From assembly GCA_021793235.1 (NCBI GenBank), contig JAJYTD010000017.1:1-64000 (forward strand): a DNA stretch of 64,000 nt, given 5' to 3'. The notes under the pieces were generated by a model. The model did not search any database. It saw nothing but the letters and a program-made list of their open reading frames with translations, and was not told the DNA's origin. The position numbers and the translations under genes were made by a program. Below are positions 20,365 through 61,350 of this stretch, one piece after another. Numbering within the stretch: the stretch's first letter is position 1; the number at the start of each line of letters is the position of its first letter. Source of the DNA: Actinomycetes bacterium. GTDB lineage: Bacteria > Actinomycetota > Actinomycetes > Streptosporangiales > Streptosporangiaceae.

Positions 20365-22107
20365 TTACTGGGCGAGGCCCATGGCGGAGTAGTCGTACAT
20401 CTTGAACGACTCGCCGAAGAAGACGTTGGTGACGTTCTCCGGGCGGAAGAGCAGCGCCTTCTGGTCCAGGTAGGGCAGCAGCGTCGCGGAGTCCATCGCC
20501 AAAGCGTCGACCTCGGCGTACATCTCCTCGCGCTGGGCGGGGTCGTCGGTCACGGCCGCCTCGTCCAGCAGCTCGTTGATCTCTGGGTCGTCGAGCTCGG
20601 AGAGATTGCTGTTGCCGGCGCCCTTGATCGAGTCGCCGTGCACGATCTGCTGGAAGAAGCCGTAGCCGGAGGGCCAGTCAGAGCCCCAGCCGTAGGCCAT
20701 GATGCCGAGCTCCTCCTTCTCCACGAAGGCCGGGGAGCCGGCCTGCTCGCTGGTGTAGGTGCCGGCCTCATAGCCCTTCAGTTCGGCATTGATGCCGTAC
20801 TCGGCCAGAGCCTGCTGCAGCGCCTCGGCCGCCTTCTTCTCCTTGTCGCGGTCCGAACGGTAGGAGATCTTGGTGTCGAAGCCGTCCTCCTGGCCACAGG
20901 CCTCCAGGCTTTCGGCGACCTTGTCCGGGTCGCCCTTGTGCTCGGGCGTTCCGTAGGGGTCGATCTCGGTAAAGCCCGGCGTGGACGGGGGCAGCATGTT
21001 GGTGGCGATGTCGCCGCCGACCTCACCGCCCCAGGCGGCCTGCATGGCCGTCTTGTCGGCGCCGTACAGGACCGCCTCGCGGCAGGCCTTGTCGTCGAAC
21101 GGCTCGACGTTGGGGTTGATGGCGAAGTAGAGCTTGAAGCCCGTCTGCGGGTTGTCGGCCTGGGCCTTGAGGTTCTCGTCGCGCAGGATCTTGCCGCGCG
21201 CCGCCGCCTCGAGGCCGAGGCCGGCGACGTCCATGTGCAGGTCGCCCGACATCAGGCGGTTGTCGCGGTCGTTCTCCTCCTGCTTGAAGGCGACCTCGAT
21301 CTTGTCGGGGCGGTTGCGGGTGAGCGGGTCGGTCTCGGGGTCGTACTCTTCGTTGCGGACCAGGTTGAGGGTCTTGCCCGGGGTCCACTCGGATTCGAAC
21401 TTGTAGGGGCCGTTGGAGACGACCTGGGTCTGGTACTGGTCACCGGTGTCGGCATCGGCCGGAACCGGTGACGTCTGGGGCATCGCGGCGACGTAGTCGA
21501 ACTCGCTGAACGGCTCCTTGAGCTTGAATTCGATGGTGCGCTCGTCGGGGGTCTCGATGCCCGTGAAGTTGTCGAGGTCTTCGTCTTCGTAGGGGCCCTC
21601 GTAGTCGCCGGCGTCCAGGAGCTGGCTGAAGTACACCGGGCCCTTGTTGATGATGTCGGGCGCGAAGTTGCTGCGCGCCACGGCGTACTTCACGTCCTCG
21701 GCGGTGATGGGGGTGCCGTCCTCGAACTTCAGCCCCTCTTTGAGGGTGTAGGTCCAGGTCAGGCCGTCGTCACTGACCTCGCCGAGGTCTTCGGCCAGGT
21801 CCGGGACCAGCTCCAGGCCCTCCTCGCCGGGCTGCTGGGCATAGGTCACCAGGCTGCGCGCGTAGAAGCGGGTGAAGGACCAGTTGGCGGCGTAGTAGGT
21901 GTTGCCCGGGTCCAGGGAGTCGAACTGGTCGGAGTGCGCGAACTTCAGCGTTCCGCCCTGCTCGTCCGAGGGGTTGACGATACTGGTGGTGCCGGCGTCG
22001 AATTCGGCTTCGGTACCGCCTCCGCCGTCGCCTCCTCCGCCGCAGGAGGTGAGGAGCATCGCCGCCGAGGTTGTGGCGGCGGCGAGGCCCAGCCATTTCT
22101 TGCTCAC
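20365..22107 (-). CDS. Peptide ABC transporter substrate-binding lipoprotein
   Basis: A 580-aa extracellular solute-binding protein of family 5 (DppA/OppA type). The signal peptide ends in a lipobox (LLTSC, Cys22) followed by a Gly-rich stretch. Family features are LVPDLAEDLGEVSDDGLTWT, LKEGLKFEDGTPITAEDVKY and the long C-terminal region ending in an aromatic patch. It binds peptides outside the membrane for the DppB/C permeases. The ligand is not predictable. Confidence 0.94.
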   Translation of the reverse strand: MSKKWLGLAAATTSAAMLLTSCGGGGDGGGGTEAEFDAGTTSIVNPSDEQGGTLKFAHSDQFDSLDPGNTYYAANWSFTRFYARSLVTYAQQPGEEGLELVPDLAEDLGEVSDDGLTWTYTLKEGLKFEDGTPITAEDVKYAVARSNFAPDIINKGPVYFSQLLDAGDYEGPYEDEDLDNFTGIETPDERTIEFKLKEPFSEFDYVAAMPQTSPVPADADTGDQYQTQVVSNGPYKFESEWTPGKTLNLVRNEEYDPETDPLTRNRPDKIEVAFKQEENDRDNRLMSGDLHMDVAGLGLEAAARGKILRDENLKAQADNPQTGFKLYFAINPNVEPFDDKACREAVLYGADKTAMQAAWGGEVGGDIATNMLPPSTPGFTEIDPYGTPEHKGDPDKVAESLEACGQEDGFDTKISYRSDRDKEKKAAEALQQALAEYGINAELKGYEAGTYTSEQAGSPAFVEKEELGIMAYGWGSDWPSGYGFFQQIVHGDSIKGAGNSNLSELDDPEINELLDEAAVTDDPAQREEMYAEVDALAMDSATLLPYLDQKALLFRPENVTNVFFGESFKMYDYSAMGLAQ

Positions 22108-22188
22108 TGGATTCTGCCTTTCTACGCGAGATCTCCGGTGGTCGGGGGGGGACCGGGGCGGCGGTTCACGCCGTGGTCGGTCCGGGGC

Positions 22189-23187
22189 TCAGGACTGTGT
22201 CCGGGGGTCCAGTGCGTCGCGCAAGCCGTCGCCGAAGAGGTTGAACGCGAGCACGGTCAGAAAGATCGCGAGTCCGGGGGCCAGCATGAAGTTCGGTGCC
22301 GCGTTGTAGTAGTCCACGGCCTCAGAGAGCATCCCGCCCCAGGTCGCGGTGGGTGCTTCGACTCCGACCCCGAGGAAGGACAGGGCGGCTTCGAACAGGA
22401 TGTTGGTGGGGATCAGCAGCGTCGAGTAGACGAGGATCGGGGCGACCAGGTTCGGCAGGAGTTCTTTGCGCAGGATGTAGAAGTTGCTCGCGCCGAGGCT
22501 GCGGGCGGCTTCGACGAATTCGCGCTCCCGCAGCGACAGGGTCTGGCCGCGGATGATCCGGCCGATGTAGGGCCAGTTGAAGAACCCGATGATGAAGACC
22601 AGGATCGCGATCCGCAGTCCGTTGCCCTGCAGCCCGAACGCGGCGTCGGGGATGACGCCGACCAGTGCCATCGCGAACAGCAGCAGCGGGAACGCCAGGA
22701 AGATGTCCATCAGGCGGCTGATGAACGCGTCCACCCAGCCGCCGAAGTAGCCGGCGATGACGCCCATGACGGTGCCGATGACCACCGAGACCATGGTGGC
22801 GAGGAACCCGATGAGCATGGAGATGCGTGCGCCGTAGACGATCCGGCTGAAGATGTCGCGCCCGGTGACCGGTTCGACGCCGAGTAGGAACTCCCCGCTC
22901 ATTCCGCCCCACGGCGCGTTGGCGGTGCTCAGGACGGGATCGATCATCTCCTGGTGCCACTCGTTGGGCGGGTGGCCGAGCAGGCGCACGATCAGGGGTG
23001 CGCAGACCGCCACCAGGGCCATGAACACCACGAAGCCGAAGCCGATCATGGCGACCTTGTCCTGCCGCAGCCGTGTCCAGGCGATCTGTCCCAGAGAGCG
23101 CCCGCGGTCGGTGGCGCCTCCCGGGGAGGCGCCCTTGTCCGGTCGGGCCGGTTCGGCCGCCCCGGATACGTCCAAAGGCGCGGTCAT
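22189..23187 (-). CDS. Peptide ABC transporter permease, DppC type
   Basis: A 332-aa permease and first gene of the leftward operon (DppC, binding protein, DppB, DppDF). A cytoplasmic N-terminal stretch of about 40 residues precedes the first helix (VAMIGFGFVVFMALVAVCAP). The EAA loop is EAARSLGASNFYILRKELLP, and the family end LNLFGDGLRDALDPR is present. GGGGAG lies 11 nt before the ATG. The gene order, with the DppC-type permease ahead of the binding protein, is unusual. Confidence 0.93.
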   Translation of the reverse strand: MTAPLDVSGAAEPARPDKGASPGGATDRGRSLGQIAWTRLRQDKVAMIGFGFVVFMALVAVCAPLIVRLLGHPPNEWHQEMIDPVLSTANAPWGGMSGEFLLGVEPVTGRDIFSRIVYGARISMLIGFLATMVSVVIGTVMGVIAGYFGGWVDAFISRLMDIFLAFPLLLFAMALVGVIPDAAFGLQGNGLRIAILVFIIGFFNWPYIGRIIRGQTLSLREREFVEAARSLGASNFYILRKELLPNLVAPILVYSTLLIPTNILFEAALSFLGVGVEAPTATWGGMLSEAVDYYNAAPNFMLAPGLAIFLTVLAFNLFGDGLRDALDPRTQS

Positions 23188-23654
23188 TGAACCACTACTC
23201 CCCTACTGCTCCCGCTTCTTGTGCGGCCGGGCCCTCCGGTTGGTTGGCCTGAGGACCCGGGTGTTCCGGGTGGTTGCACGATGCGTACTGGTACGTGCGG
23301 AAAACGTCAACACCGGCACCGGATGCGTCCCCGCCACCGGAAACCAGCGAGCGCGGTCAGCGCACACCGGAAATCAACAGAATCGACATGAAGTGTGCGC
23401 ACGGCAGCACACCATGATCAACCTACTCATGAGTACGTCACCAAGCGTCCAAATCTCGGCGATGTATCCCAATCGTGACCCGAAGCGCATGCAACCGTAG
23501 CCTTCCGTTGCCGAACACCCAGCAGGCAGCACACCACGAAGCGCGCACACCCCGGAGGCAGCGTGCACCCGGCCGCGAAGATTGTCTACACCCTTCCGCC
23601 GAATTTCGTAGAAAGCATACACCAACAAAGCGCCCATAACGGACATATAGGCAT
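23188..23654. other. Long intergenic region upstream of the peptide transporter
   Basis: 467 bp with a rather low GC content in its right half. It must contain the operon promoter. A short inverted repeat CGTAC-TG-GTACG (around 23284-23295) could be an operator. I found no convincing gene; the frames here have no ribosome binding site or overlap the terminator at 23655. Confidence 0.5.
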
Positions 23655-23686
23655 AAAAAAACACGCCCCATTCGAAATGGAGCGTG
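23655..23686 (-). terminator. Rho-independent terminator
   Basis: On the minus strand an 11-bp stem with one mismatch (CACGCTCCATT pairing with the downstream arm) is followed directly by seven T residues. This is the clearest intrinsic terminator in the window. It ends transcription of the membrane-protein gene 23734-24228. Confidence 0.85.
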
Positions 23687-23733
23687 CGGACGGCCCGTCC
23701 CGTGGCGCCCGGAAGGCTACCGCGCGGTCTCTC

Positions 23734-24228
23734 TCACTCGATACCGTGCTTGCGCAGCAGGTCCTCGATGTCGCTGAAGTCCTCGGTGCCGCCGGCGGCC
23801 TGCTTCTTGCCCGGCTGCTGCCCGGCGCCCCCGGCCGCGTCCCCCGATCCGCCGATCCCCGCGGCCGGTTTGCGGCTCTGCCCCTCCACCGCGGTCGTGC
23901 CGCCTTTCGGCCCGCCGACACCGCGGGACTTCATTACTCCCGAGACCACCCACAGGACCACGGCCAACCCCGCTACGGCGACACCGGCCCACACCACCGG
24001 GTTGAAGACCAGCCCCACGAAGAACCCGGCCAGATCGGCGACGATCCGCCAGATGATCGCCATCAGCCCCATCAGGCCGGCGGCCAGCGGCAGCAGCGAC
24101 CACGCCACGCCGCGCAATCCCGCCGCGGCGCCCCTGCGGCGCCAGACCACCCAGGAGATGAGCAGCCCCACCACGGTGAGAGCGGCTCCCAGCATCGGAC
24201 CTGCGATCGGCAACTGTTCCGGCGACAT
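23734..24228 (-). CDS. Small membrane protein, conserved in actinobacteria
   Basis: A 164-aa protein with three or four transmembrane helices in the first 100 residues, then a Gly/Ala-rich linker and an acidic end (EDFSDIEDLLRKHGIE). The short C-terminal motif ending in a Leu-Arg-(Lys/Arg)-His-Gly-Ile pattern looks like a conserved docking peptide; this is my impression, not a named domain. It is transcribed leftwards and ends at the terminator at 23655. Confidence 0.75.
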   Translation of the reverse strand: MSPEQLPIAGPMLGAALTVVGLLISWVVWRRRGAAAGLRGVAWSLLPLAAGLMGLMAIIWRIVADLAGFFVGLVFNPVVWAGVAVAGLAVVLWVVSGVMKSRGVGGPKGGTTAVEGQSRKPAAGIGGSGDAAGGAGQQPGKKQAAGGTEDFSDIEDLLRKHGIE

Positions 24229-24287
24229 ACCCCCAGTCTCGCACTTCAGGGACGCGCTGCATATCCGGTGAGTCCCCTAGGGACGGT

Positions 24288-24317
24288 GGAAGGCGGCAGG
24301 CCCTCCTGCCGCCTTCC
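24288..24317. terminator. Strong hairpin after the metH operon
   Basis: A perfect 13-bp stem (GGAAGGCGGCAGG and its complement) with loop CCCT. It lies 26 bp after the HAD gene stop on the leftward strand. There is no U-tract, as is common for actinobacterial terminators. Confidence 0.6.
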
Positions 24318-24342
24318 GTCCCCCGAGATCGGCGCCGGCGCC

Positions 24343-25019
24343 TCAGCCCTGAGCGTCGGCCGCCAAGCGGTGCAGCCATGCCATGTCGATGCCGACCAGC
24401 GACTCGACCACATGCACCCCTTCGGCCCGCACCGGACCGGCGTGGCCGGGCACCGCGACCGTGATGCAGCCCGCGGCCAGCGCCGAGGCCACACCGACGG
24501 CCGAGTCCTCGAACGCCACGCACCGCTGGGGGTCGACCCCGAGCAGCCGGGCCGCCTTCAGGTAGGGCTCCGGATCGGGCTTGTTGCGCTCGACCTCGTC
24601 ACCGGCGACGGTCACATCGAAGTTGTCGATGCCGATGCCGCCGATCGCCATCTTGATCAGGTGCCGCTCGGTCGAGGTCACCAGGGCCGAGGCCACCTCG
24701 GAGCCCGCGACCAGTGCCACCAGGTCCTTGGCGCCGGGGCACGTATCGGCCCCCTCGGCCAGCCGGCGGGCGAACGCCGCGTGCAGCCGGGAGGTGACCT
24801 CGGCCGGCGGCACGCCGGCGCCGGTCAGCTCGATGATGTACCGAGCGACCGGCTCCGCCGCACCGCCGATGTTGTATCGGTGGTCCTCTGCCGTCCAGAC
24901 TCCGCCGAGCTCGGCAACGGTCTCCGCCTCGGCGTCGTTCCACATCCCTTCACTGTCGATCAGGGTTCCGTCCATGTCGAACAGGACGGCCTGCAGCGGC
25001 CCACCGGTCGAGGTGTCGG

Positions 25020-25023
<4 letters not shown>
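24343..25023 (-). CDS. HAD-superfamily phosphatase
   Basis: A 226-aa hydrolase of the HAD superfamily, beta-phosphoglucomutase-like group. Motif I is VLFDMDGTLIDSEG, motif II is in ALVTSTERHL, and motif III/IV is KPDPEPYLKAARLLGV with CVAFEDSAVGVASA. Its ATG overlaps the metH stop as ATGA, so it is translated from the metH transcript. The substrate is unknown; tight coupling to metH suggests a housekeeping or metabolite-repair role. Confidence 0.9.
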
Positions 25024-28490
<3,467 letters not shown>

Positions 28491-53825: not shown

Positions 53826-53960
53826 CGCCGCCCCGGTCTGTACCGCCCCCTGCCGCGCAGCGCGGAGAATCGGCACCCCTAAACCTCACCCGGGAGCCAT
53901 ATCCGCGTCCTCTCCGGCAAGCCAGGTGTCGCTTGACCGGCGCGGCGGCCCGCTTCAAGG

Positions 53961-54032
53961 ATGAAAGGCGTGCGCAACCGTTCACCCGGATTCGCCCCTG
54001 CCCATGTCCGCCGACCCCTCTTGTCCAGGTGA
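53961..54032 (+). CDS. Possible 23-aa leader ORF before the peptidase
   Basis: ATG 53961 to TGA 54030-54032, a basic 23-residue peptide (MKGVRNRSPGF...). Its stop overlaps the peptidase GTG start as GTGA. The peptidase itself has no ribosome binding site, so translation could be coupled through this frame. AAGG directly precedes the ATG, which is too close for a good site. Low confidence. Confidence 0.25.
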   Translation: MKGVRNRSPGFAPAHVRRPLLSR

Positions 54033-56095
54033 GCACGGCGCCCTTCCACCGCGCACCGGGCCGGCCCGGTGCGCGGACGGCGCCCGCCCCGGCCGTCGAC
54101 ACGGTGCACGGCGTCCCCGTGGCCGACCCCTACCGCTGGCTGGAGGACCCCGACTCCGCTGCCACCCGCCGGTGGCTGGCCGAACAGGACCGGGAGTTCA
54201 CCCGGGCCGCCGCCGGATGGCCCTTGCGCGGCCGGCTGGCCGCCGATATCCGCCGACTCGTCGCCACTGACCTCTGGTCACCGCCGGTCCACCGCGGCGG
54301 CCGGGTGTTCGCGACCCGGCGTGCGGCCGGTGCCGACCATCCCGTGCTCCTCGTCATCGGCGGCGGGACCGAGCACGTGGTGTTCGACCCCGCCGCCGAC
54401 GATCCCAGCGGCCGGACCACGCTGGACGCCTGGGAGCCCAGCCCCGATGGGCTGCTGGTGGCCGTGCAGACCTCCACCGGCGGCACCGAGCGCGGCGCGC
54501 TGCGCGTGCTCTCCACCGACACGGGCCTGCCGGTCGAGGAGCCGATCCGGGGGGTGCGCTACTCCCATGTCGCCTGGCTTCCCGGCCCGGGCGCCTTCTA
54601 CTACGTCCGCCGCGACGACGGCGACGGCCGCCGCGGGGTGTGGCTGCACCGCATCGCCGAAGGGCGCGGCCACCGCGGCGACGTGCTGGTGCGCCCCTGT
54701 ACCGGGGCGCGCACCGTGCCGGGTGTGCGGCTGCTGCGCGACCGGTGGCTGGTGGTCACCGAGAGCCACGGCACCGGCCACCGCAACGACCTGTGGATCG
54801 CCGATATCTCCGGCGGCCGCGAGGCGGACCCGCCCTGGCGGGAGGTGCACGCCGGACGGGATATCGAATCCGAGCCCGACATGGGCCCTGACGGCCTGCT
54901 CTACCTGCGTACGACCCTGGAGGCCCCGCGCCGCCGGATCTGTGCCGCCGACCCCGGCGCGCCCGGGCCCGCCCACTGGCGCGAGGTGGTGCCCGAGGCC
55001 CCCGATTCCACGCTGGACGGCTTCGCCGCCACCGGGACCGAACTCCTCATCGCCCGCACCCGCATGGGCATCAGCGAGGTGAGCGCCCACGACCCGCGCG
55101 ACGGGAGCCTGCTCCGGCGGGTCGACCTGCCCGGGGAGGGCATGGTGACCCGGCCGGCGGCCAGCGGGGACGACGGCAGCGCCCACTTCTGCTACGCCGA
55201 TGTCGCCACCCAGCAGACCGTGCTGGCCCTGCCTCCGGGCACGACCCGCCCCCGGCCCTGGCCCCCGGGCGCCGACCCCCCGGCTCCGCCACGGGTGCGC
55301 CGCCGCACGGTGCGGTGCCGCTCCGCCGACGGCACGCTGGTGCCGGTCACCCTGTTCTCCACCGCGGCGCACGACGAGTCCGGCCCCACCATCCTGCACG
55401 CCTACGGCGGGTTCGGCCGGCCGCGCCAGTTCGGGTTCAGCGCGACCGTGCTGGCCTGGCTGCTGGCCGGGGGCCGCTACGCCGTCGCCCACGTGCGCGG
55501 CGGCGGCGACGCCGGGCGCGAGTGGCACATGCGCGGCGCCCGGCGCAACAAGATCCGCTCGGTGGAGGACCTCATCGCCGCGGGCGACGCGCTCGTCGCC
55601 GCCGGGTACTGCACGCGCGGCCAGTTGTGCCTGTCGGGCGGGTCGGCGGGCGGCCTGCTGGTGCTGGCCGCCGCCATGCTCCGCCCCGACCTGTGCTCGG
55701 CCGTCATCGCTTCGGCCCCGCTGGCCGACATGGCGCGTTTCGAACGCCTGGGTCTGGGGTCGATGTGGACCCGGGAGTTCGGCACCGCGGCCGATCCCGA
55801 TGACTTCGCCGCCCTGATGTCCTACTCGCCCTACCACCGGGCGCTGGCCGGGCACGGGCAGCGCTACCCGGCGGTGCTGATCACCGGCTTCCACGGCGAC
55901 ACCCGTACCGATGCGGCCCATGCGCGCAAGATGTGCGCCGCCCTGCGGGCCGCGGCCGCGCCGGCCGTCCCGGTGCTGCTGCGCTACGAGCACGGCGTCG
56001 GCCACGGGCCGCGCTCTGTGACCAGGGCCATCGAACTCGCGGCCGACGCGCACGCGTTCGCGGCCGCGCGAACAGGGCTGCTCTCGCGGTACTGA
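54029..56095 (+). CDS. Prolyl oligopeptidase (S9A)
   Basis: A 688-aa serine peptidase of family S9A that cleaves short peptides, typically after Pro. It has an N-terminal DTVHGVPVADPYRWLEDPDS signature, a beta-propeller (about 80-420) and an alpha/beta hydrolase domain with Ser539 (LSGGSAGGLL), Asp624 (FHGDTRTDAAHARK) and His659 (HGVGHG). There is no signal peptide, so it is cytoplasmic. It is 47 bp upstream of a small peptide gene and in the same direction, suggesting a role in leader-peptide removal, as described for a few lanthipeptide systems (FlaP). A general peptidase role is the alternative. Confidence 0.9.
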   Translation: MSTAPFHRAPGRPGARTAPAPAVDTVHGVPVADPYRWLEDPDSAATRRWLAEQDREFTRAAAGWPLRGRLAADIRRLVATDLWSPPVHRGGRVFATRRAAGADHPVLLVIGGGTEHVVFDPAADDPSGRTTLDAWEPSPDGLLVAVQTSTGGTERGALRVLSTDTGLPVEEPIRGVRYSHVAWLPGPGAFYYVRRDDGDGRRGVWLHRIAEGRGHRGDVLVRPCTGARTVPGVRLLRDRWLVVTESHGTGHRNDLWIADISGGREADPPWREVHAGRDIESEPDMGPDGLLYLRTTLEAPRRRICAADPGAPGPAHWREVVPEAPDSTLDGFAATGTELLIARTRMGISEVSAHDPRDGSLLRRVDLPGEGMVTRPAASGDDGSAHFCYADVATQQTVLALPPGTTRPRPWPPGADPPAPPRVRRRTVRCRSADGTLVPVTLFSTAAHDESGPTILHAYGGFGRPRQFGFSATVLAWLLAGGRYAVAHVRGGGDAGREWHMRGARRNKIRSVEDLIAAGDALVAAGYCTRGQLCLSGGSAGGLLVLAAAMLRPDLCSAVIASAPLADMARFERLGLGSMWTREFGTAADPDDFAALMSYSPYHRALAGHGQRYPAVLITGFHGDTRTDAAHARKMCAALRAAAAPAVPVLLRYEHGVGHGPRSVTRAIELAADAHAFAAARTGLLSRY

Positions 56096-56142
56096 CCGGT
56101 GCTCGGGAGGGCCCTCACCCGGAAGAAGGAGGTGAAAAAACC

Positions 56143-56250
56143 ATGGACCCGATCGAGGTCGAGGTCGAGGACCTCGCCGAGGTCACCTCGCGGGACATCA
56201 CCGCGGGCGGCGACAGCGACGGTACCGACTCCAGCTCCGACTTCATCTGA
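56143..56250 (+). CDS. Candidate RiPP precursor peptide
   Basis: A 35-codon gene preceded by AAGGAGGTG (12 to 14 nt before ATG 56143), nearly a full anti-SD match. The peptide has 11 acidic residues and one Arg. Residues 1-23 are leader-like (MDPIEVEVEDLAEV, ending in Gly22-Gly23). Residues 24-35 read DSDGTDSSSDFI, a core of Asp, Ser and Thr without Cys. It sits between the peptidase and oxygenase genes, with a hairpin after it, the usual layout of a precursor gene before its modifying enzyme. The function is inferred from size, composition and context. Confidence 0.7.
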   Translation: MDPIEVEVEDLAEVTSRDITAGGDSDGTDSSSDFI

Positions 56251-56276
56251 CCGGACGATCCACCCCATCCGCCACC

Positions 56277-56315
56277 GACCGGCCGCCGGGGAGGCGCCTC
56301 CTTTGGCGGCCGGTC
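56277..56315 (+). terminator. Attenuator-like hairpin after the peptide gene
   Basis: An 11-bp perfect stem (GACCGGCCGCC and its complement) encloses a loop that itself contains the 12-bp palindrome GGAGGCGCCTCC (56290-56301), so two alternative structures are possible. There is no U-tract. The position, 27 nt after the peptide stop and 20 nt before the oxygenase, fits partial termination that keeps the peptide transcript in excess. Confidence 0.6.
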
Positions 56316-56335
56316 CCGCCGTGGAAGGCCCGATC

Positions 56336-57514
56336 TTGACCGACCGCCTGTTCACCGAAATACTGCGCACGGCCATCGGCGACGAGCTTCTCACCGGGCG
56401 GCTGTCCTCGGATGTCGTCTTCGCCGACCTCGGCGCCGAAGCCGTGCGCCCGCTGTTGACCTTCGACGACCTCAGCGACATCCTCACCACGCACGCCCTG
56501 GAGCCGCCCCGGGTGCGGCTGCACCGCAAGGGCGCGCCGGTTCCGGCCGCCCGCTACACCGATGCCGGTGAGGCCTCGCGCACCACGCGCCGGATCATCC
56601 GGCCCGAGGCGCTCTACCGCGAACTGCGCGAGGGCGCCAGCCTGGTCCTGGACGGCATCGACCGGCTGCACCCGCCGATCCGGGCGGCTACCGATGACCT
56701 GATGCGGCTGGTCCGCGAACGGGCCCAGACGAACCTGTACCTCATCTGGGGGGATTCGCACGGTTTCGACACCCACTGGGACGACCACGACACCTTTATC
56801 GTGCAGGTCGAGGGGACGAAGGCGTGGCAGGTGCACGGGCAGGGCAGCCGCCCGTACCCGATGAAGGTGGACGCCGACCACGCCCACGCCCCGCCCGAGG
56901 GCACCGTGTGGGAGGGGGTGCTGCGCCCCGGCCAGGTGCTGCACGTTCCCCGCGGCTGGTGGCACACGGTCACCGGCACCGGCGATGTGAGCATGCACCT
57001 GACGTTCGGGTTCACCCGCGCCACGGGCATCGACTGGGCGCGCTCCCTGCTGGAGCGCCTGCACGATGTGCGGCTCCTGCGCCGCGACCTGCCGCGGTTC
57101 GGCTCCGCCGAGGAGCGCCGCACACACCACCACGAGCTCCTGCGGTGCCTGGCCGACCTCGCCGAGCAGCACGATATCGACGCGTTCCTGGACGAGCGCG
57201 ACGCGCGGTTCCCGCGCCGCCAGTCCTTCGCGCTGCCCTGGGCGGTGGACGGCGCGGATCCCGCGCCGTCCACCCGGGTGGAGTTCGTGCCGATCCTGGC
57301 TCCTGTGGTGGAGCGCGACGGTGAGCGCATCAGCGTCACGGTCTCGGGCCGGCGCTACCGGCTTCCCGCGGTCGCCGAGCCCGTCCTGGCCGCGATCGCC
57401 CGGGAGCGGTCGCTGACCGTTGCCGAGCTCGCCGAGCGGTCCCGGACACCGCTGGAGACCACGGCCGAGGTGCTGCGCGCCCTGGTGCGCCACCACCTTG
57501 TGCTGCTGCGCTGA
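56336..57514 (+). CDS. JmjC/Cupin_4 oxygenase, ROX-like
   Basis: A 392-aa Fe(II)/2-oxoglutarate oxygenase-type protein of the Cupin_4 (JmjC) family. Metal ligands are the HxD pair in FDTHWDDHDTFIVQVEG (codons at 56774 and 56780) and the distal His in VPRGWWHTV (56963). The cofactor-side VEGTKAWQVHG is also typical. The C-terminal 90 residues contain a winged-helix-like segment (LTVAELAERSRTPLETTAEV), as in ribosomal oxygenases YcfD, MINA53 and NO66, which hydroxylate Arg or His. Here the nearest substrate candidate is the small peptide upstream. TTG 56336 has GGAAGG 7 nt upstream; GTG 56321 is the alternative. Confidence 0.85.
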   Translation: MTDRLFTEILRTAIGDELLTGRLSSDVVFADLGAEAVRPLLTFDDLSDILTTHALEPPRVRLHRKGAPVPAARYTDAGEASRTTRRIIRPEALYRELREGASLVLDGIDRLHPPIRAATDDLMRLVRERAQTNLYLIWGDSHGFDTHWDDHDTFIVQVEGTKAWQVHGQGSRPYPMKVDADHAHAPPEGTVWEGVLRPGQVLHVPRGWWHTVTGTGDVSMHLTFGFTRATGIDWARSLLERLHDVRLLRRDLPRFGSAEERRTHHHELLRCLADLAEQHDIDAFLDERDARFPRRQSFALPWAVDGADPAPSTRVEFVPILAPVVERDGERISVTVSGRRYRLPAVAEPVLAAIARERSLTVAELAERSRTPLETTAEVLRALVRHHLVLLR

Positions 57515-57535: not shown

Positions 57536-58312
57536 TTACTCCCGGGCCGCCCGCTGCGCGGCGACGTAGGCCTCGATGCCGTCGAGTAGGCGCTCGATGC
57601 CGAACTCGATCTCGACTTCCACTTCCGGCCGGTCGGCGGGGTCCGCGGCTTCGAACGCGCCATCGGCGGCGACGGCCGCCAGGGCGGGGTAGCGGTCCGC
57701 GGGAATGCCTCGGAGGAACCGGCCGTAGTCCCGTTCCGCCTGGTCGGCGGTGAGGCCCGCCCGGCGCTGGGCCTGCTCGACGTCTCCGAGTACCCGGGCG
57801 AGTTCGCGGACCGCTCCGTCCAGGAACATGAACGCCTGGACCATCTCGGCTGAGCCGAGTCCGGAGGTGGAGAAGGCGCGCAGCCCCTGCTCGAGCCAGG
57901 AGAGGCTGCAGGGCCCCTGAGGCGGGCCTTCCAGCTTGTGCCGCAGCAGCCAGGGGTGTCTGCGGAAGACCGCCACCATCTCCCGGGCCAGGATGTGGAT
58001 CCCGGCCCGCCACCCGCCGGGGACGCCCTCCACCTCCGGCGCCGAACCGATCGCCGTGTCGACCATGAGCTCGACGAGCTGCTCCTTGCTGGAGACGTAG
58101 CGGTACAGCGACATGGTGGTGTAGCCGAGCTCCTGGGCGACGCGCTGCATCGACACCGCGTCCAGCCCTTCGGCGTCGGCGACCCCGATGGCGGCCTGAA
58201 CGACCTTGTCGACGCTCAGCCGGGGCTTGGGTCCGCGGCTGGGCCGCTCGGCGGTACCCCACAGCAGTTCCAGGGTGGTGGGGGCGCCCGTCGGGGTGCC
58301 GTCCCTCGCCAT
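57536..58312 (-). CDS. TetR-family regulator of the exporter genes
   Basis: A 258-aa regulator. The helix-turn-helix is in VVQAAIGVADAEGLDAVS and RVAQELGYTTMSLYRYV. The C-terminal domain is of the TetR_C type (VFRRHPWLLRHK, FMFLDGAVRELARVLGD). It is divergent from the drrA-like gene, with one operator between them, a typical drug-responsive arrangement. It ends 22 bp from the oxygenase gene, convergent with it. Confidence 0.91.
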   Translation of the reverse strand: MARDGTPTGAPTTLELLWGTAERPSRGPKPRLSVDKVVQAAIGVADAEGLDAVSMQRVAQELGYTTMSLYRYVSSKEQLVELMVDTAIGSAPEVEGVPGGWRAGIHILAREMVAVFRRHPWLLRHKLEGPPQGPCSLSWLEQGLRAFSTSGLGSAEMVQAFMFLDGAVRELARVLGDVEQAQRRAGLTADQAERDYGRFLRGIPADRYPALAAVAADGAFEAADPADRPEVEVEIEFGIERLLDGIEAYVAAQRAARE

Positions 58313-58332
58313 GTTCCTCCCATCGTCGCGGG

Positions 58333-58378
58333 TTGACCTCCAGTCTAGATCTGTGTATTACTTACACTAAATAGTGTA
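58333..58378 (+). promoter_or_regulatory. Promoter and TetR operator of the exporter
   Basis: A -35 box TTGACC (58333-58338), a 17-bp spacer and a -10 box TATTAC (58356-58361) place the start of transcription near 58368. Over that point lies the palindrome TACACTA-AA-TAGTGTA (58363-58378). Binding of the divergent TetR protein would block the exporter promoter and probably its own. Confidence 0.75.
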
Positions 58379-58403
58379 TCTGGCACACAGAAAGGAGGTG
58401 CCC

Positions 58404-59402
58404 GTGGACACCACCGGACACGCCGTCCTCGCCGAGGGGATCGGCAAGCGCTACGGCGCGACCCAGGCGCTCGACGGCTTCGACATCGCCGTGCCGCCGG
58501 GCACGATCTACGGACTGCTCGGCCCCAACGGCGCGGGCAAGACCACCACCGTGGAGATCCTGGCCACGCTGCGGCGCCCCGACACCGGGCGCGCCGTGGT
58601 CGCCGGGTACGACGTGGTGCGCGACCCCGGTCAGGTGCGCGCCCGGATCGGCCTGACCGGCCAGTACGCCGCGGTGGACGAGGTCCTGACCGGCCGCGAG
58701 AACCTCGCCGTGTTCGGGCGGCTCTACGGCCTGAGCCCCGCGGCCGCCCGGCGGCGCGCCGACGCGCTTCTGGAGGAGTTCGGGCTGGCCGAGGCCGGCC
58801 CCCGCCCGGCCCGGCAGTACTCGGGCGGCATGCGGCGCCGGCTCGACCTCGCCGCCAGCCTGATCCACCGGCCCCGGGTGCTGTTCTTGGACGAGCCCAC
58901 CACGGGCCTGGACCCGCGCAGCCGCACCGGAGTGTGGAACGCCGTCCGGGAACTGGTCGCGGCCGGGACCACGGTGCTGCTCACCACGCAGTACCTGGAG
59001 GAGGCCGACCAGCTCGCCGACCGGATCGCGGTCATCGACGCCGGGAGGGCGGTCGCGGAGGGCAGCGCCGACCAGCTCAAGTCCCGGATCGGCGGCGACC
59101 GGATCGACGTGGTCCTCAGCGGGCCCGGAAGCCTGGCCGAGGCCGCCGCGATCATCGGCCGCGTCTGCGGCGCCCAGCCGCGGGTCCTGGCCGAGGAGCA
59201 CCGGGTCAGCGTCCCCGTCTCGGACCGGACCGCCATGCTCACCGGCATCGTCCGCGCCCTGGACGACGCCGGTGTGCACCTCGAGGACATCGGAGTGCGC
59301 AGGCCCACACTCGACGAGGTCTTCCTCGGCCTCACCGGGCACCGCGCCGATCCGAGCGGGGCCGCGGGGGCCCGCCACGCGGAACTGGAGGCCGCATCGT
59401 GA
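58404..59402 (+). CDS. ABC exporter ATPase, DrrA type
   Basis: A 332-aa ATPase of the DrrA (daunorubicin resistance) group. Walker A is GPNGAGKTTTVEIL, the signature YSGGMRRRLDLA, and Walker B VLFLDEPTTGLD with the DrrA-typical YLEEADQLADRIAVID. The C-terminal RPTLDEVFLGLTGH is also typical. GTG 58404 follows a consensus AAAGGAGGTG. It is followed by the permease gene with a GTGA overlap. Substrate unknown. Confidence 0.94.
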   Translation: MDTTGHAVLAEGIGKRYGATQALDGFDIAVPPGTIYGLLGPNGAGKTTTVEILATLRRPDTGRAVVAGYDVVRDPGQVRARIGLTGQYAAVDEVLTGRENLAVFGRLYGLSPAAARRRADALLEEFGLAEAGPRPARQYSGGMRRRLDLAASLIHRPRVLFLDEPTTGLDPRSRTGVWNAVRELVAAGTTVLLTTQYLEEADQLADRIAVIDAGRAVAEGSADQLKSRIGGDRIDVVLSGPGSLAEAAAIIGRVCGAQPRVLAEEHRVSVPVSDRTAMLTGIVRALDDAGVHLEDIGVRRPTLDEVFLGLTGHRADPSGAAGARHAELEAAS

Positions 59403-60247
59403 CGACCACCGGCACGGCCGCCCCTCCCCCGGCGCGGCTCCCGGGCACCCCGGCGCAGCGGCTGGGCAGGGCCGCCGCCGACTGCCTGACCATCACCCGG
59501 CGCAACCTGATCCGGGCGGTGCGCGATCCGGCCGAGCCGCTGATCGGGGTCATCATGCCGATCGTGGTGATGCTGCTGTTCGGCTCCGTGTTCGGCAGCG
59601 TGCTGGTCGTTCCCGGCGGCGGCAACGTCTATGAGTTCCTGATGCCCGGCTTCTTCGCGATGGCGATGCTCAACGGCGTGGCCGCCACCGCGACCGGCAT
59701 GGCCATCGACAGCGGCCGGGAGGTCATGGGCCGGTTCCGCTCCATGCCCATGGCGCCGTCCGCGCTGCTCACCGGGCGCGCTGCGGCCGACCTGCTCCGG
59801 GCGGTGGTCGAGCTGGCCCTGCTGGTGCTGGTCGGGCTGCTGGTCGGCTGGAGGTGGAACGGCGGTATCGGCGGCGCGCTGCTCGCGCTGGCCCTGCTGC
59901 TGCTCTTCCGCCTGGCGCTCACCTGGGTCGGCGTCTACCTGGGCCTGGTGGCCCGCGATCCGGAGGTCACCGGCGTGCTGGTGTGGCCGGTGGTGTTCCC
60001 GATCACCGTCATCTCGACGACCTATCTTCCTCCGGCGCTGATGTCGGACGCGCTGGGGGCCATCGCCGAGTGGAACCCGGTCTCGGCCGTAGTGAACGCC
60101 ACCCGCGAGCTGTTCGCCAACCCGGGTGTGGGCGGGGACTCCTGGACGGTGGAGCACGCGGCGCTGATGGCGGTCGCGTGGTCGCTGCTCATCCTGGCGG
60201 TCTTTGTTCCGCTGTCCATCCGCCGGTACCAAAGGCTCAGCAGGTAG
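59399..60247 (+). CDS. ABC-2 type exporter permease, DrrB type
   Basis: A 282-aa membrane protein with six helices, partner of the preceding ATPase. Typical parts are LTITRRNLIRAVRDPAEPLIGVI at the start (over two segments), the FRSMPMAPSALLTGR loop and WNPVSAVVNATRELF near the end. It exports hydrophobic drugs or, in this context, possibly a modified peptide. GTG 59399 overlaps the ATPase stop. Confidence 0.93.
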   Translation: MTTTGTAAPPPARLPGTPAQRLGRAAADCLTITRRNLIRAVRDPAEPLIGVIMPIVVMLLFGSVFGSVLVVPGGGNVYEFLMPGFFAMAMLNGVAATATGMAIDSGREVMGRFRSMPMAPSALLTGRAAADLLRAVVELALLVLVGLLVGWRWNGGIGGALLALALLLLFRLALTWVGVYLGLVARDPEVTGVLVWPVVFPITVISTTYLPPALMSDALGAIAEWNPVSAVVNATRELFANPGVGGDSWTVEHAALMAVAWSLLILAVFVPLSIRRYQRLSR

Positions 60248-60335: not shown

Positions 60336-60371
60336 TTGTCGATCAAAAACTGTTAGGGTAGCCTTAACTAA
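60336..60371 (+). promoter_or_regulatory. Promoter with iron box (DmdR/IdeR type)
   Basis: TTAGGGTAGCCTTAACTAA (60353-60371) matches the 19-bp actinobacterial iron-box consensus at 15 positions. It overlaps a possible promoter: TTGTCG (60336-60341), 17 bp, TAGCCT (60359-60364). Iron-loaded DmdR/IdeR would repress the FhuF-like gene when iron is plentiful. Confidence 0.8.
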
Positions 60372-60483: not shown

Positions 60484-61350
60484 ATGCCAGTGCCACAGCA
60501 TCCGCTCCAGGCGGTGGTCGATGCCTGCGCACCGCTGAAGTTCGCACCGCTGCCCGACATCCGCACCGCCCAGTTCCAAGCGGCGAGCGACCACCCAGGC
60601 GCCGAGCACTGGTACCGCGCCGACCTGATGGTCGCCGAAGGCGCCGTGGGCGCCCTCTTCGACCAGATCACGACGCACCACGGCCCCGGCCACAAGCTTC
60701 CGGCCTCGACCAACCTCCTGCGCGCCCTGCTGCGCGAGCCGATCTTCATCGTGTCGGCCGGCATCTACCTCACCGGCCGCGCCCCGCTGCTGGACGCCGA
60801 CCACCTGTGGTTCCCGTGGCTGCCCGGTGCGAGCTTGGGCACCCCGACCCTGACCAGCGGCCGGGTCGCGGTACTGCCCGATGATCCGGCCGCCGGACAC
60901 CGCGACGCCGTCGTCGTCGCAGACGAGGCCGAACTGGACCGCATCGCCGCCGAGCACCTGGTGGGCGCCTTCTCCCCCATGATCGACGCGCTGCACGCCC
61001 ACACCCGGGTGGGCCTGCGGACGCTGTGGGGCTGGGTGCTGGACACCCTGCACTTCTACATGCTCAACCCGGCCCGCTTCCTGGGCCGCGACGCCGAGGC
61101 CGCGTGGACCCGCGCCGGCCGCCTGGGCGACGCGCTGGTCGAGGCCGGGGCGGTGACCCGGGCGCGGCCGCGGCTGTTCCCGTTCCAGGAGCACCACCCG
61201 CGCGGCACCTGGGCGGTGCGCGGCACCTGCTGTTTCGAGTACAAGGGCGACCCCGAGCACGGTTACTGCACCACCTGCCCGCTCAAGTGCGACACCGACC
61301 GCCGCACCGAACTCCAGGAGTGGATCCGCAACCCGGCCCTGGCCCCCTGA
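60484..61350 (+). CDS. FhuF-like siderophore-iron reductase
   Basis: A 288-aa protein whose C-terminus has four cysteines in a CC-x11-C-x2-C arrangement (GTCCFEYKGDPEHGYCTTCPL read in two parts), the [2Fe-2S] motif of FhuF-type ferric-siderophore reductases. The middle has the family-like LWGWVLDTLHFY. It probably releases iron from imported siderophores in the cytoplasm. ATG 60484 follows AGGAAGG. The iron box upstream supports the role. No siderophore genes are adjacent. Confidence 0.85.
   Translation: MPVPQHPLQAVVDACAPLKFAPLPDIRTAQFQAASDHPGAEHWYRADLMVAEGAVGALFDQITTHHGPGHKLPASTNLLRALLREPIFIVSAGIYLTGRAPLLDADHLWFPWLPGASLGTPTLTSGRVAVLPDDPAAGHRDAVVVADEAELDRIAAEHLVGAFSPMIDALHAHTRVGLRTLWGWVLDTLHFYMLNPARFLGRDAEAAWTRAGRLGDALVEAGAVTRARPRLFPFQEHHPRGTWAVRGTCCFEYKGDPEHGYCTTCPLKCDTDRRTELQEWIRNPALAP

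Follow-up and report, generated by a model that had tools for sequence, protein, structure and literature searches.

A peptide gene paired with a JmjC oxygenase

The window analysed here is a stretch of 64,000 nucleotides from an Actinomycetes bacterium (contig JAJYTD010000017.1 of assembly GCA_021793235.1, positions 1 to 64,000), and it carries a row of three genes on one strand: a prolyl oligopeptidase gene, a 35-codon gene for an acidic peptide and, after a hairpin, a gene for a JmjC (ROX-like) oxygenase. The original prediction, made from the letters of the window, took this row for a new locus of a ribosomally synthesised and post-translationally modified peptide (RiPP) with gaps of 47 bp and 85 bp between the genes, and the positions and gaps agree with ours. 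The features of the row are as follows.

54029..56095, + strand: prolyl oligopeptidase (S9A), candidate leader protease; Pfam PF02897 (S9_N) and PF00326 (S9)
56126..56133, + strand: ribosome-binding site AAGGAGGT of the peptide gene, about 10 bases upstream of the ATG, read directly
56143..56250, + strand: gene of the 35-residue precursor peptide, MDPIEVEVEDLAEVTSRDITAGGDSDGTDSSSDFI
56143..56193, + strand: leader M1-R17, with the motif IEVEVEDL preceding an invariant Arg, from the alignment of divergent precursors
56212..56229, + strand: core D24-S-D26-G-T-D29 (DxDGxD), proposed site of hydroxylation and iron binding
about 56277-56315, + strand: intercistronic hairpin between precursor and enzyme (fold z = -2.3)
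56336..57514, + strand: JmjC/ROX-like Fe(II)/2-oxoglutarate (2OG) oxygenase (JmjC_2, PF08007) with a fused domain like a RiPP recognition element (RRE); TTG start most likely
56774..56782, + strand: metal ligands H147-x-D149
56963-56965, + strand: third metal ligand, H210
57251..57511, + strand: C-terminal RRE-like domain of 87 residues, modelled separately (predicted local distance difference test, pLDDT, 95)

The precursor peptide is a real gene. The small acidic frame and its strong ribosome-binding site were confirmed, and the peptide was found at 50 loci, where the ratio of non-synonymous to synonymous polymorphism (pN/pS) over 46 aligned genes is 0.16, indicating strong purifying selection. 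R17, D24, D26, D29, D33, F34 and I35 are invariant (46 of 46 gap-free sequences), position 25 varies among S, N and T, and position 30 between S and G. No NCBIfam or Pfam family was matched by the precursor. In Nocardiopsaceae, practically all oxygenase loci carry the peptide 70–200 bp upstream of the enzyme, together with a ribosome-binding site. Thus the two counter-indications named in the original prediction, homologous oxygenases without an adjacent peptide frame and a peptide that is not conserved at the amino-acid level, did not appear. Its expectation of a conserved leader and a variable core fails within the family, where conservation is highest in the core; for this reason a variable-core antibiotic RiPP was rejected here.

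The HxD...H metal ligands, described earlier as intact, proved to be invariant columns (H147, D149 and H210) in 37 aligned sequences. The AlphaFold2 model of the oxygenase (pLDDT 92) has NO66, MINA53, YcfD and YxbC as its nearest folds; the Foldseek match to NO66 (E 5e-22) places it among JmjC double-stranded beta-helix proteins with a metal triad, and the fold is closest to enzymes hydroxylating protein side chains. An ordinary ribosomal oxygenase, next to a small frame that is translated but unrelated to it, would fit these matches of fold and family to NO66, MINA53 and YcfD. However, the peptide frame is conserved with the enzyme over many genera and has a common leader, and divergent enzymes are paired with divergent peptides, so that we regard this explanation as highly improbable.

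The C-terminal domain is predicted to be RRE-like, its strands and helices following one another as in an RRE (beta3-alpha3 winged helix). Its top Foldseek matches are TbiB1-leader complexes, ThcOx, MibB, TruD, MccB and PqqD, the best at E 2.5e-3, and the winged helix of NO66 also matches it with a template modelling (TM) score of 0.75, which is higher than those of the RRE matches. As the E-values are modest, the domain is termed RRE-like by prediction. In the lineage of the window, no class-defining synthetase of the lanthipeptide, lasso, graspetide or thiopeptide classes (LanB/C/M, lasso cyclase, ATP-grasp or YcaO protein) was recognised adjacent to the precursor. From the above, the conservation, the leader motif shared with relatives and the modelled RRE-like domain support well the reading of the locus as a RiPP pathway, in which a precursor is paired with a JmjC modifier; the original prediction stood in this respect and missed the link to iron.

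Related loci in actinobacteria and their iron boxes

One scan of genome contigs gave 71 loci with related oxygenases. Among 347 sampled genomes of the order, the A-type enzyme is present in about 70 Nocardiopsaceae genomes, which is nearly all of that family in the sample, and the order of oligopeptidase, peptide and oxygenase is constant across the Nocardiopsaceae loci. More distant enzymes (~30-55% identical) have their own small upstream Open Reading Frames (ORFs) in Pseudonocardia, Actinomadura, Streptomyces, Brevibacterium and other actinobacteria. Generally, the precursors have a common leader, hydrophobic-x-V-x-VE, with an Arg, invariant in the alignment, usually 8 residues further on; M1 and this Arg (R17) are the sole invariant columns across the aligned divergent precursors. 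The cores are DxDGxD in types A and B, a metagenome-assembled genome (MAG) and the f19 lineage, SDGG..SDxND in the C type, GDDGENRD in the D type, and ATFAKTH.RA.VPDF in the E type (Streptomyces), which is accompanied by an arginase, a radical SAM enzyme and a second JmjC enzyme.

The link to iron comes from two features downstream of the oxygenase.

60353..60371, + strand: IdeR/DmdR1-type iron box TTAGGGTAGCCTTAACTAA, 3 mismatches against the 19-base consensus
60484..61350, + strand: FhuF-like [2Fe-2S] ferric reductase, the partner gene under the iron box; PF11575 above cut-off, PF06276 slightly below

This box lies 112 bases upstream of the FhuF-like gene and is one of only 4 such matches in the 4.8-Mb genome (control 0); among the other close matches, one adjoins the gene of a siderophore-interacting protein and another precedes that of a ferric-siderophore-type lipoprotein (read by eye). 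Boxes were scored by mismatch count, with a main threshold of at most 4 mismatches. At this threshold, 51 of 60 DxDGxD loci have a box, compared with 1 of 46 loci with other cores; without Nocardiopsaceae the numbers are 6 of 10 and 1 of 46 (Fisher p = 4e-5), and at up to 5 mismatches 9 of 10 and 2 of 46. The reversed-pattern control is about zero. Most of the box-less Nocardiopsaceae loci have no FhuF in the DNA stretch examined.

The partner genes differ among lineages and belong to two unrelated families: Nocardiopsaceae and the MAG (L065) have FhuF, and Pseudonocardia (type B) and f19 have Suc_Fer-like proteins, so that the ferric reductase expected of a siderophore pathway is present as FhuF in the window and as a Suc_Fer-like protein in the other two. 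An uptake partner is seen in L046 only, a Peripla_BP_2 siderophore-binding protein with its own box, and is not constant. In Pseudonocardia the box stands directly upstream of the peptide gene, conserved inside a more variable stretch, and in the window and f19 it stands upstream of the reductase alone. Moreover, across the 347 genomes the presence of the FhuF subfamily coincides with that of the A-type enzyme; the sole genome with FhuF and without the A-type enzyme is the MAG (G191), where a DNDGND precursor adjoins FhuF. FhuF is a ferric-siderophore reductase (PMC8068687), and DmdR1 boxes have been used before to assign a metal to metallophore clusters (PMC12161575). The DxDGxD lineages occupy three places on the enzyme tree with well-supported branches between them, and the association of this core with iron boxes is therefore not confined to a single lineage, although one gain and two losses could also account for the three changes.

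The locus might alternatively encode a RiPP whose function has nothing to do with iron, for instance a signal or an antibiotic, with FhuF and its box as old syntenic neighbours: FhuF forms a separate transcription unit, other Nocardiopsaceae neighbours are syntenic too, and iron boxes are missing from the C-, D- and E-type relatives. Against this, the iron association recurs with other partner genes and DxDGxD cores in Pseudonocardia, the distant MAG and f19, and a near-invariant core is unlike antibiotic precursors; we consider this alternative unlikely. The almost invariant core would also suit a peptide-derived redox cofactor comparable to mycofactocin or pyrroloquinoline quinone, for which the [2Fe-2S] proteins (FhuF, Suc_Fer-like) would be electron partners, and an aldo/keto reductase adjoins the oxygenase in some relatives. 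However, iron-repressor boxes indicate iron supply, FhuF is known for reducing ferric siderophores (PMC8068687), F34 is the sole aromatic residue, and the usual quinone or glycosylation enzymes are absent nearby, all of which makes a cofactor quite improbable.

Several relatives deserve description in their own right. In Streptomyces antioxidans (L071), the lone other-core locus with a box at 4 mismatches, the JmjC relative has a short basic upstream ORF and lies within a hydroxamate siderophore cluster (ornithine monooxygenase, formyltransferase, FecCD and a binding protein); it was considered as support for the iron link and not counted, because its peptide lacks DxDGxD. Four Streptomyces loci (L054, L056, L057 and L058) represent a distinct RiPP cluster type with a JmjC-RRE enzyme, consisting of precursor, JmjC enzyme, peptide arginase, radical SAM enzyme, second JmjC/cupin, aldo/keto reductase, ABC exporter and PhyH oxygenase. 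At the Brevibacterium locus (L068), just the precursor-JmjC pair was seen. C-type precursors with a JmjC enzyme, often with an aldo/keto reductase, were found at L059-L064, L070, L102-L107 and L161-L168; a paralogous system exists inside Nocardiopsaceae as well, and convincing iron boxes are absent from these loci. At L067 and L069 a YcaO gene lies two genes 3' of the JmjC relative (Pfam-confirmed in L069), which suggests a thiazole/oxazole or thioamide RiPP there. The record of L022, titled Glycomyces fuscus, contains a Nocardiopsis-like locus and enzyme, and its genome label may be wrong.

A proposed pathway to an iron-binding peptide

What the DNA itself shows is a conserved peptide that is paired with the enzyme, together with the iron boxes and the partner genes for reductases; from these we infer hydroxylation, a cut site, iron binding and a location of the product, which could be secreted or intracellular. 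In the proposed pathway, the RRE-like domain would grip the leader (VEVEDL...R17), and the oxygenase would beta-hydroxylate all three Asp residues in the DxDGxD core and perhaps D33 as well. In Nocardiopsaceae a dedicated prolyl oligopeptidase would then take off the leader after R17 or A21. The three two-toothed beta-hydroxy-Asp residues (hydroxy-carboxylate pairs) would form a six-toothed ferric ligand, and the iron-repressed FhuF, or the Suc_Fer-like protein in other lineages, would reduce the ferric complex and release the iron. The product would be a secreted siderophore or an internal iron carrier.

Beta-hydroxy-Asp is a known siderophore ligand. Hydroxylation of the core Asp by this oxygenase is plausible by analogy, Asp beta-hydroxylation in RiPPs being established for other enzyme families (PMC12636437, PMC13060819). 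The original prediction had proposed Asp, Ser or Thr as targets, of which Ser is unlikely as a conserved target, given the variation at positions 25 and 30. The enzyme could instead act on the invariant Arg17, like the arginine hydroxylation of ROX/YcfD: R17 is the sole non-initiator residue invariant in all aligned precursor types, the structural neighbour YcfD hydroxylates an Arg, and the RiPP enzyme BipG hydroxylates ornithine (PMC12707348). But the near-fixed distance between R17 and the leader motif fits leader recognition or cleavage, and iron boxes track the acidic core and not R17. The invariant Arg may be a site of recognition, cleavage or modification, and as the oxygenase's target in place of Asp we find it distinctly unlikely.

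The oligopeptidase has an intact Ser/Asp/His triad and the S1 Trp, and its closest solved relative is M. xanthus POP 2bkl. Since a second prolyl oligopeptidase (46% identical) is encoded elsewhere in the genome, the copy in the operon may be dedicated to the locus; it is a candidate leader protease, and its linkage is specific to Nocardiopsaceae. The precursor contains no conserved Pro, and as Pro3 varies among relatives, cleavage after Pro was rejected as a general rule. Candidate sites are after the invariant R17 or after the invariant A21.

Several points weigh against Asp hydroxylation and an iron-binding product. The substrate residues of JmjC enzymes are not readable from sequence. The box in the window's lineage precedes FhuF and not the peptide operon, and in Nocardiopsaceae no iron box was found upstream of the oligopeptidase-peptide-oxygenase operon, just an AAACCT/TTGACC pattern, so that iron control of that operon itself was rejected. 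The Pseudonocardia boxes carry 4-5 mismatches under a scoring that is a mismatch count, and the loci counted are phylogenetically non-independent. No iron link or box was found in the C-, D- and E-type relatives; the iron link thus does not extend to the enzyme family as a whole, and it was rejected as a feature of all JmjC-RRE systems. Across the window's lineage, no dedicated transporter for export or import is consistently present. Finally, the genome may already make a siderophore by a non-ribosomal peptide synthetase (NRPS), since an NRPS cluster shares a contig with another iron box beside a siderophore-interacting protein. This probable NRPS siderophore region (G000:C36:14019 and 21256-27227) holds the iron box, the siderophore-interacting protein, an MFS transporter and condensation domains; no IucA/IucC synthetase was found in the genome. 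The idea of the peptide as the only siderophore of the genome is weakened by it, and an internal iron carrier becomes a serious alternative to a secreted siderophore.

In summary, judged from the boxes and partner genes, an iron function of the finished peptide is likely. We put at about 55% the probability that the locus is a minimal RiPP pathway yielding an iron-binding peptide, through Asp beta-hydroxylation and FhuF/Suc_Fer-like release. The most specific form of it is offered tentatively, at less than even odds: a ribosomal siderophore, for which one JmjC-RRE enzyme would modify a 35-residue peptide so that its DxDGxD core becomes a six-toothed Fe(III) ligand of the tris(beta-hydroxyaspartate) type, reduced by an iron-repressed FhuF/Suc_Fer-like protein, at three places of the enzyme tree in Actinomycetota.

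The remaining features concern the expression and surroundings of the operon. The two elements upstream of it are as follows.

53881-53886: AAACCT element, ~50 bp upstream of TTGACC, conserved likewise in 16 Nocardiopsaceae loci
53933..53938, + strand: -35-like element TTGACC, putative operon promoter, from 16 aligned Nocardiopsaceae upstream regions

The hairpin noted earlier between peptide and oxygenase is real, and six folded relatives have a strong stem at its position with a differing sequence; a hairpin between precursor and enzyme genes is a frequent set-up for a precursor output above that of the enzyme. A 20-codon ORF, VRNRSPGFAPAHVRRPLLSR (window 53970-54032), overlaps the oligopeptidase start via GTGA, and this stretch is joined in frame to the oligopeptidase in some Nocardiopsis (e.g. 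L026). A TetR regulator and a DrrAB-like ABC transporter (window 57536-60247) lie between oxygenase and FhuF; they are present in some Nocardiopsaceae only, and elsewhere FhuF follows the oxygenase directly. The regional Rfam scan gave no matches.

Known systems and the meaning of the finding

The original prediction knew of no described class of this kind, a claim that needs qualification: the literature already describes JmjC-RRE fusions and, with BipG, one JmjC enzyme that hydroxylates a RiPP. BipG is a proven hydroxylase that acts on ornithine in biphenomycin biosynthesis (PMC12707348). Both are JmjC Fe(II)/2OG oxygenases, and BipG acts on a ribosomal precursor peptide; however, it is one of several modifiers, with a multinuclear non-heme iron-dependent oxidase (MNIO), a B12-dependent radical SAM enzyme, an arginase and an HExxH protein, whereas here, in the window's lineage, the oxygenase is the sole modifying enzyme encoded beside an Asp-rich precursor. 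Bregman et al. (2025) independently noted PF08007-RRE fusions in RiPP-like contexts, with PF08007 fused to a beta3-alpha3 RRE-like fold as in our enzyme (PMC12710340); the text consulted names no precursor family, product or function, and precursors, leader motif and an iron link are defined here. PMC13381572 was rejected as a description of this family, as it concerns a different one.

Other comparisons concern the chemistry and the protease. In cinnamycin, a lanthipeptide, a CinX-type enzyme performs 2OG-dependent beta-hydroxylation of Asp, as proposed here, and the hydroxy-Asp serves lipid binding; CinX belongs to another oxygenase family. Methanobactin and bufferins are copper-binding RiPP metallophores made by MNIO enzymes with Cys-derived ligands; in them, too, a ribosomal peptide is made into a metal ligand, for copper and not for iron as proposed here. 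The beta-hydroxyaspartate siderophores of NRPS origin use hydroxy-Asp as the same two-toothed ferric ligand, but are non-ribosomal. FlaP of class III lanthipeptides, named in the original prediction, is likewise a prolyl oligopeptidase encoded with a RiPP precursor, whereas the precursor here has no conserved Pro and the role in leader removal is putative. Ribosomally made ligands for copper are known, but our search of the literature turned up no siderophore of ribosomal origin.

A ribosomal siderophore, if shown, would be categorically new. With one small gene and one oxygenase, the pathway, if true, would be among the simplest conceivable and easy to express and engineer, and part of the large, noted but unexplained group of JmjC-RRE enzymes would gain a function. 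The combination of DxDGxD and an iron box would then be a simple sequence marker for finding further systems. For Nocardiopsaceae, the near-universal presence of the system implies a basic physiological role.

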